Positions 48,464-49,779 of a stretch of DNA of 64,000 bases are shown in pieces. The stretch is taken from contig SHMQ01000004.1 in assembly GCA_008534395.1 (NCBI GenBank), forward strand, positions 1-64,000, read 5' to 3'. How positions within the stretch are numbered: position 1 is the stretch's first letter; each line of letters opens with the position of its first letter. A program made the translations under genes and the position numbers. This DNA is from Candidatus Acidulodesulfobacterium acidiphilum (lineage in GTDB: Bacteria; SZUA-79; Acidulodesulfobacterales; Acidulodesulfobacteraceae). Below the pieces are notes generated by a model. The model saw only the letters and a list, made by a program, of their open reading frames with translations, made no database searches and was not told where the DNA came from.

Positions 48464-48500
48464 ACGGGGACAGAATTTAATTCCGGCACAATCACAAAAC
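48464..48500 (+). repeat. Palindromic repeat (ACGGGGACAGAATT type) with ATCACAAA tail
   Basis: Begins ACGGGGACAGAATT like the perfect palindrome at 49088-49116, but the right arm is degenerate (AATTCCGGCACA) and is followed by the ATCACAAAA tail shared with the copies at 27 and 44 kb. It starts two bases after the peptidase stop and ends 12 bases before the next ATG. Confidence 0.75.
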
Positions 48501-49087: not shown

Positions 49088-49116
49088 ACGGGGACAGAAT
49101 TGAATTCTGTCCCCGT
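49088..49116. repeat. Perfect 29-bp palindrome (ACGGGGACAGAATT)
   Basis: Two 14-base arms around a single central G form a perfect dyad. It starts 14 bases after the membrane-protein stop and has no long T-run directly after it, so a terminator role is possible but weak. This copy lacks the ATCACAAA tail. Confidence 0.9.
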
Positions 49117-49138
49117 AGTAATAAGATATATTTTTTTA

Positions 49139-49167
49139 TTGAATTATGACTATTAAGTCATTATAAT
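49139..49167 (+). promoter_or_regulatory. tetR promoter with operator-like palindrome between -35 and -10
   Basis: -35 TTGAAT (49139-49144), a 17-base spacer, and a perfect -10 TATAAT (49162-49167). The spacer contains the dyad ATGACT-ATTA-AGTCAT (49146-49161), filling it almost exactly. The tetR ATG is at 49174, seven bases after the -10, so the transcript should start at or next to the start codon. A TetR dimer on this dyad would block polymerase. Confidence 0.7.
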
Positions 49168-49173
49168 GTATAT

Positions 49174-49779
49174 ATGACCGAAATTCAGGATAAATACGAA
49201 TTAATTTTATCTTCGTCCAGAAAACTTATAGAAGAAATAGGTTTTTCTGCATTGACTATGGACAAAGTGGCTCAAAAAGCCGGTATAGCTAAAGGGACGG
49301 TTTATCTTTATTTTAAAGACAAAGACGACCTTCTGGAGAAAGTATTGTCTTCGGGATTCGAAAAAATGTTTGAAAGAATAAAAACAAGGGTCGGCAATGA
49401 AAGCGGAGCGTTTAATAAGTTGAAATCTTTAATTAACGAAAATATAAAGCATATTTACGAAAACAGATATTTTTTTAAAACTATTTTTTTGGACGAAGTA
49501 AACGTAGTGTTTTTGAAAAAAAAATCAAAGGAATCTTATAATTTAAGAAGAAAAAGATATACGGAGTATATCGCCGGCATTATTAAATCAGGTATGGAAT
49601 CTGAGGAATTCAGAAAAGACCTGAATTATTCCAAGTCTGCATATATGCTTGTATCTTTGATAAAAACCGGCGCTATATACAATTTTCTTAACGGCATGTT
49701 TGATTTAACTTCCGAAATGATAGAAAAAGATACCGAAGAAATATTAAACTTATTTATGCGCGGTATTTCCGTAAAATAA
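49174..49779 (+). CDS. TetR-family transcriptional repressor
   Basis: A 201-residue regulator with the N-terminal TetR HTH (ALTMDKVAQKAGIAKGTVYLYFKDKDDLLEKV cut short here: key residues AGIAKGTVYLYF) and a helical ligand-binding C-terminal domain. It sits 12 bases upstream of an EmrB-type exporter gene, which it probably controls together with itself. No Shine-Dalgarno is present, in line with a leaderless mRNA. Confidence 0.93.
   Translation: MTEIQDKYELILSSSRKLIEEIGFSALTMDKVAQKAGIAKGTVYLYFKDKDDLLEKVLSSGFEKMFERIKTRVGNESGAFNKLKSLINENIKHIYENRYFFKTIFLDEVNVVFLKKKSKESYNLRRKRYTEYIAGIIKSGMESEEFRKDLNYSKSAYMLVSLIKTGAIYNFLNGMFDLTSEMIEKDTEEILNLFMRGISVK

Follow-up and report, generated by a model that had tools for sequence, protein, structure and literature searches.

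The gene of a TetR-family repressor in the stretch of DNA analysed here (64,000 nucleotides, hereafter the window) is preceded by a palindrome that lies within what appears to be its own promoter, and this raises the question of what the palindrome controls and where the repressor message begins. The first-pass annotation had placed the dyad in the 17-base gap between TTGAAT and TATAAT and the start codon at the seventh base past the latter, and direct reading of the DNA found both coordinates and letters to be right (Table 1). The dyad takes up bases 2–17 of the spacer, so that a single T precedes it and its far end touches the −10 element. Its centre lies about 20.5 bases 5′ of the predicted +1, and the seventh base past the −10 element is the A of the tetR ATG (49174–49176). 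The T-rich tract in front of the −35 element is a possible UP-like element.

Table 1. Features of the tetR-emrB locus, in coordinates of the window
Feature	Position	Strand	Remark
T-rich tract ATTTTTTTA, immediately 5′ of −35	49131..49138	+	common to most tetR promoters of the lineage
−35 element TTGAAT, tetR promoter	49139..49144	+	direct reading; TTG here in 29/29 tetR promoters
Predicted TetR operator, dyad ATGACT-ATTA-AGTCAT = ATGACTATTAAGTCAT	49146..49161	+, palindromic on both strands	binding predicted
−10 element TATAAT	49162..49167	+	direct reading; TATAAT in 28/29 tetR promoters, TACAAT in 1
GTATAT, 6 bases separating −10 and ATG	49168..49173	+	direct reading
tetR, 201-aa TetR-family repressor	49174..49779	+	putative start position; +1 predicted at the ATG, give or take a few bases
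emrB-like DHA2 MFS efflux pump, 515 aa	49792..51339	+	TIGR00711, 392.5 bits vs cut-off 230.2

The tetR product has an N-terminal TetR helix-turn-helix domain (PF00440, 57.1 bits against a cut-off of 24), and the emrB-like gene, which begins 12 bases past the tetR stop, is presumed to be co-transcribed with tetR. This pump is not the sole EmrB of the genome, in which four EmrB-like pumps were counted. The best NCBIfam match of the repressor is FadR (E 4.6e-23), and FadR of Bacillus (3whb/1vi0) is among the PDB chains nearest to it. We did not file the repressor as a FadR of the Bacillus type, because its score of 82 bits is under the equivalog cut-off of 200 and its presumed targets are efflux genes. 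Among 26 aligned full repressors, conservation is highest in the helix-turn-helix, where 17 of the 29 residues are invariant, compared with 36 of 139 elsewhere; such conservation is usual for the TetR family and is therefore only compatible with the dyad being the operator of this protein.

The genome of 2,093,156 bases (2.09 Mb) holds three copies of the exact dyad, ATGACTN4AGTCAT, one of them in the window. Under a second-order Markov model trained on 568,857 bases of the genome, 0.043 copies per genome are expected, a value that the exact dyads exceed about 70 times, and the reversed pattern, taken as a control, has no copy in the genome. All three dyads sit in 17-base promoter spacers that resemble the consensus. 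Dyads with up to three mismatches are not enriched in the window (15 against 19.7 expected), and promoter hexamers by themselves are unremarkable in this AT-rich DNA (4 promoter-like sites/1 kb against a shuffle mean of 4.7). Promoter-like sites and degenerate dyads are both frequent in dinucleotide shuffles. The signal rests on the dyad in its exact form, on where it is placed, and on its conservation.

A search for the same dyad at other promoters of the genome, as the first-pass annotation had advised, found two more, both 5′ of outer-membrane channel operons. On contig 6, a promoter of the form TTGACA-A-dyad-TATGAT precedes an outer-membrane efflux (OEP) operon of the TolC_A type, in which the PF02321 outer-membrane efflux protein is followed by an HlyD adaptor, an ABC ATPase, and a MacB-type permease. 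Past the TolC_A gene, PF16576, PF00005, PF12704, and PF02687 all score above cut-off, a content like that of MacAB-TolC. On contig 22, TTGACT-T-dyad-TATAAT precedes a second OEP operon, of the TolC_B type, with an outer-membrane efflux protein, an HlyD adaptor, and then a 137-aa protein. Both channels carry OEP domains (PF02321, 176.8 and 159.6 bits; cut-off 22), and both stay under the cut-off of 225.15 of the TolC subfamily TIGR01844, at 144 bits for a sequence that stops at the locus end and at 165.8 bits. The 18 OEP domain matches of the genome were counted as nine genes, two of which carry the operator. The 137-aa protein (L054:8562-8972, minus strand) lies past the TolC-HlyD pair in 10 of 10 loci of this type that were read, at 43–91% identity, and has no Pfam match.

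Conservation was examined with the bare dyad in 30 genomes, 19 from the same family and 11 from outside it, and with the full promoter pattern in 30 genomes of the phylum. The bare dyad is present in all 19 family genomes, in one to three copies each (49 in total), and all 49 copies lie within such promoter spacers; outside the family, one of the 11 genomes has a single copy. When the full promoter pattern, TTGN4ATGACN6GTCATTATRAT, was searched with at most two mismatches, 85 places were found in 30 of 30 genomes (reversed-pattern control, 4), and with at most one mismatch 79 places (control, 0). Because this pattern fixed most of the dyad and hexamer letters, the letter conservation among the 85 sites arises partly by selection. 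Letters fixed by the pattern therefore do not count as evidence for conservation. What does count is the outermost T/A of the two arms, together with the search for the bare dyad, which is free of this bias for the promoter hexamers.

According to tblastn, the genes downstream of the 85 sites comprise 29 TetR, 28 TolC_B (contig-22 type), 21 TolC_A (contig-6 type), and 6 MFS genes, and the remaining site, in G019, is 5′ of another OEP protein; at every site, therefore, the gene downstream encodes the repressor, a pump of the EmrB type, or an outer-membrane efflux channel. The dyad is kept at the same place at all of the tetR 5′ ends seen in the lineage (29 promoters in 28 genomes), and the site is retained at repressor genes that are 52–98% identical. 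The matching HlyD is downstream in all 19 TolC loci that were read 5 kb further, and in 9 of 9 TolC_A loci so read ABC and MacB are found as well, in the same order. The −10 element of the TolC_A promoters is variable (n=21: TATAAT 4, TATGAT 6, TACAAT 3, TATTAT 3, TATCAT 2, TATATT 2, and TAGAAT 1); despite this, the dyad arms hardly vary and the inner bases are nearly fixed.

Some arrangements depart from the common one. Six sites of genus g2 precede an EmrB-like MFS gene alone, with the −35 element one base further out and a spacer of 18. In these genomes (G016, G021, G023, G025, G027, and G029; loci L137, L140, L143, L146, L149, and L155), the MFS pump is encoded apart from tetR, behind an operator-promoter of its own. 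The tetR operator-promoter of G023 (L152/L153, G023:C155:56503-56657) is present in tandem duplicate, 126 bases apart.

A different palindrome, GGGGACAGAATTGAATTCTGTCCCC, is found upstream of the tetR promoter at 49088–49116 (core 49090–49114), with a half copy near 48466–48485. It has 29 copies in the genome at up to three mismatches (control, 0). Here it lies 24 bases 5′ of the tetR −35 element, as it does in G002 and, in degenerate form, in G012; it is missing from most relatives. Further copies are near TolC_A promoters in G000, G002, G005, G012, and G014 (8 of the 85 sites). The palindrome looks like a mobile REP-like element, to which the one Y1 transposase gene on contig 68 may be linked.

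Where the tetR message begins was approached through the distance from the −10 element to the ATG, measured to the first in-frame ATG or to the homologous one. In genera g1, g3, g4, and g5 this distance is 6–11 bases at 19 of the 20 sites, the exception being G003 with 23, and the spacing of 6 in the window fits a +1 at the A. For the two channel genes that carry the operator in this genome, the distances are 177 and 68 bases; close spacing is therefore a feature of the repressor gene. The distance is 69–304 bases at the eight sites of genus g2 and 57 in g6. The leaderless start proposed by the first-pass annotation is compatible with the comparison and probable for this gene, but it is not conserved in g2 and g6. 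For the gene in the window, promoter spacing leads us to think that the message is probably leaderless or near-leaderless (0–4 bases). No Shine-Dalgarno sequence (GGAG, GAGG, or AGGA) was found before 49174; this is weak evidence for a leaderless message, because by the same rule only 171 of 458 sampled genes have one (control, 23.3) and 287 do not.

A leaderless habit throughout the genome was considered and rejected. With the −10 element alone (87 genes), the 11 matches at 5–10 bases correspond to 1.8 per position, and the density at 41–79 bases is 2.0 per position. With both the −35 and −10 elements (171 genes), 13 matches fell at 5–11 bases and 2–13 in the other 7-base bins, which is suggestive at most. 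The tetR gene is outside this 171-gene sample, because the preceding gene ends inside the required clear zone of 110 bases. Promoter-like matches 5–11 bases before the first ATG mark as candidate leaderless genes L260:2901 (+), L256:18422 (−), L260:19103 (−), L253:181 (+), and nine others.

Several other explanations of these observations have to be weighed. Degenerate dyads and 9-of-12 promoter matches occur at chance frequency, as they would if a palindrome had met a promoter-like AT-rich sequence by accident; however, exact dyads are in roughly 70-fold excess in the genome, and in 30 of 30 genomes they recur at one and the same position of the promoter, each time 5′ of efflux or repressor genes. 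This refutes a chance palindrome, the probability of which we regard as negligible. The dyad might also be owned by a regulator other than the adjacent TetR protein, one that governs the efflux genes and tetR alike. Such a regulator would account for G015 and G024, in which TolC sites are present and no tetR match was found, but both genomes are incomplete (86% and 85% complete, respectively), and the site is 5′ of tetR in 28 of 28 genomes in which the tetR 5′ end was seen. In addition, the size and symmetry of the dyad suit a TetR dimer, and conservation among the 26 repressors peaks in the helix-turn-helix, usual as this is for the family. We consider ownership by another regulator very improbable.

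The operator could be real and the tetR message nevertheless leadered, through an upstream promoter or read-through, in which case nothing would be leaderless. The leaders in g2, g6, and G003 agree with this, chance promoters are frequent in AT-rich DNA, and a terminator-like site sought between the upstream gene and tetR was not found. On the other hand, an operator on the tetR promoter makes sense only if that promoter is used, and in four genera the promoter keeps its distance of 6–11 bases from the ATG at 19 of 20 sites, though the intervening letters differ. A leadered message at this locus therefore seems unlikely to us.

On the comparison of genomes, the best reading of the dyad is an operator shared by an efflux regulon throughout the lineage, in which obstruction of RNA polymerase would bring about both repression and self-repression. 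It is highly probable that the adjacent TetR protein has its operator in this dyad, which would govern tetR-emrB and, in trans, the two channel operons; tetR transcription probably starts at the ATG or 0–4 bases 5′ of it. Self-repression through an operator in the spacer, as the first-pass annotation had proposed, is strongly supported by the comparison of 29 tetR promoters in 28 genomes. The description as a compact circuit was too narrow, because the same operator-promoter is also 5′ of two channel operons, and a multi-locus efflux regulon takes its place.

A repressor dimer on the spacer would keep RNA polymerase off both the −35 and the −10 element, and binding of a ligand to the repressor would free the operator. 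The operator would govern tetR itself and the emrB-like pump and, in trans, the TolC-HlyD-ABC-MacB and TolC-HlyD operons. Inner pumps, adaptors, and outer-membrane channels would be induced together, and a leaderless or near-leaderless tetR message may keep the repressor scarce. In the stretch read, no inner-membrane pump accompanies the TolC-HlyD operon on contig 22, and tetR-emrB for its part lacks an adaptor. The two may thus supply one EmrAB-TolC-like pump, although the four EmrB-like pumps of the genome make it less certain which of them partners the TolC-HlyD pair. A more doubtful generalization is a rule for the whole lineage, in which the self-repressed regulator would be leaderless and the pump and channel operons sharing its operator-promoter would have ordinary leaders. 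If this were true, a single repressor with a single promoter geometry would keep the repressor scarce and the pump abundant, and genera g2 and g6 would have exchanged leaderless repressor messages for leadered ones.

These results predict an efflux regulon almost in full, from the repressor and the inner pump to the adaptors and outer channels, for a little-studied lineage, the genomes of which are largely metagenome-assembled. With one 16-base operator at one fixed promoter place, the 85 promoters form a natural set for testing repression from the spacer. They also suit tests of the purpose of a leaderless repressor message, given the contrast between the four genera that seem leaderless and the two that do not.

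Efflux systems of the EmrAB-TolC and MacAB-TolC kinds occur with TetR-type repressors. The present system resembles them in its EmrB-family pump and in the HlyD, ABC, and MacB_PCD/FtsX proteins that adjoin a TolC-like channel, whereas its pump, adaptor, and channel genes are at separate loci joined by one operator-promoter. A literature search on TetR/emrB/tolC/macB operators and leaderless tetR found no paper on the tetR-efflux regulon. The source genome presumably belongs with the order treated in a paper on an acid-mine lineage. In the main text of that paper, on a related lineage (PMC6776010), 'tolc' has 0 occurrences and 'tetr' occurs only within 'tetranucleotide'.

Precedents exist for the individual parts. 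In the available portion of the report on the acuR-acuI-dddL operon of Rhodobacter sphaeroides (PMC3017554), AcuR is a TetR-family self-repressor encoded first in the operon; its inverted repeat, TAATAGAC-n6-GTCTATTA, overlaps a TTGATT/TATTAT promoter, and the acuR transcript, mapped by 5′-RACE, starts at the AUG without a Shine-Dalgarno sequence. The locus studied here shares the TetR family, the place as first gene, the inverted repeat over the promoter, and, as predictions, self-repression and a leaderless start. AcuR differs in its repeat, in its acrylate ligand, and in serving DMSP/acrylate catabolism rather than efflux; its site was proved by mutation, whereas the evidence for the tetR dyad is comparative only (PMC3017554). 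In the nreAXY nickel-tolerance operon of Mesorhizobium, the available text describes a repressor, NreA, encoded first in an efflux operon, with a dyad operator in the −35/−10 spacer and a leaderless transcript by 5′-RACE (PMC12724321). The repressor-first efflux operon and the spacer dyad recur here, with a predicted leaderless message, but NreA belongs to the CsoR/RcnR family and has a 19-bp operator and a nickel ligand, and that text describes no second locus (PMC12724321). The messages of Tn1721 tetR and lambda cI are leaderless repressor messages with low translation (as cited in PMC3017554); they differ in operators and targets, and their leaderlessness is experimental. The arrangement is thus of a known kind, because AcuR and NreA supply precedents for both of its parts, and what is new is the tetR operator itself, the three-locus efflux regulon that it would govern, and the conservation across the phylum genomes examined.
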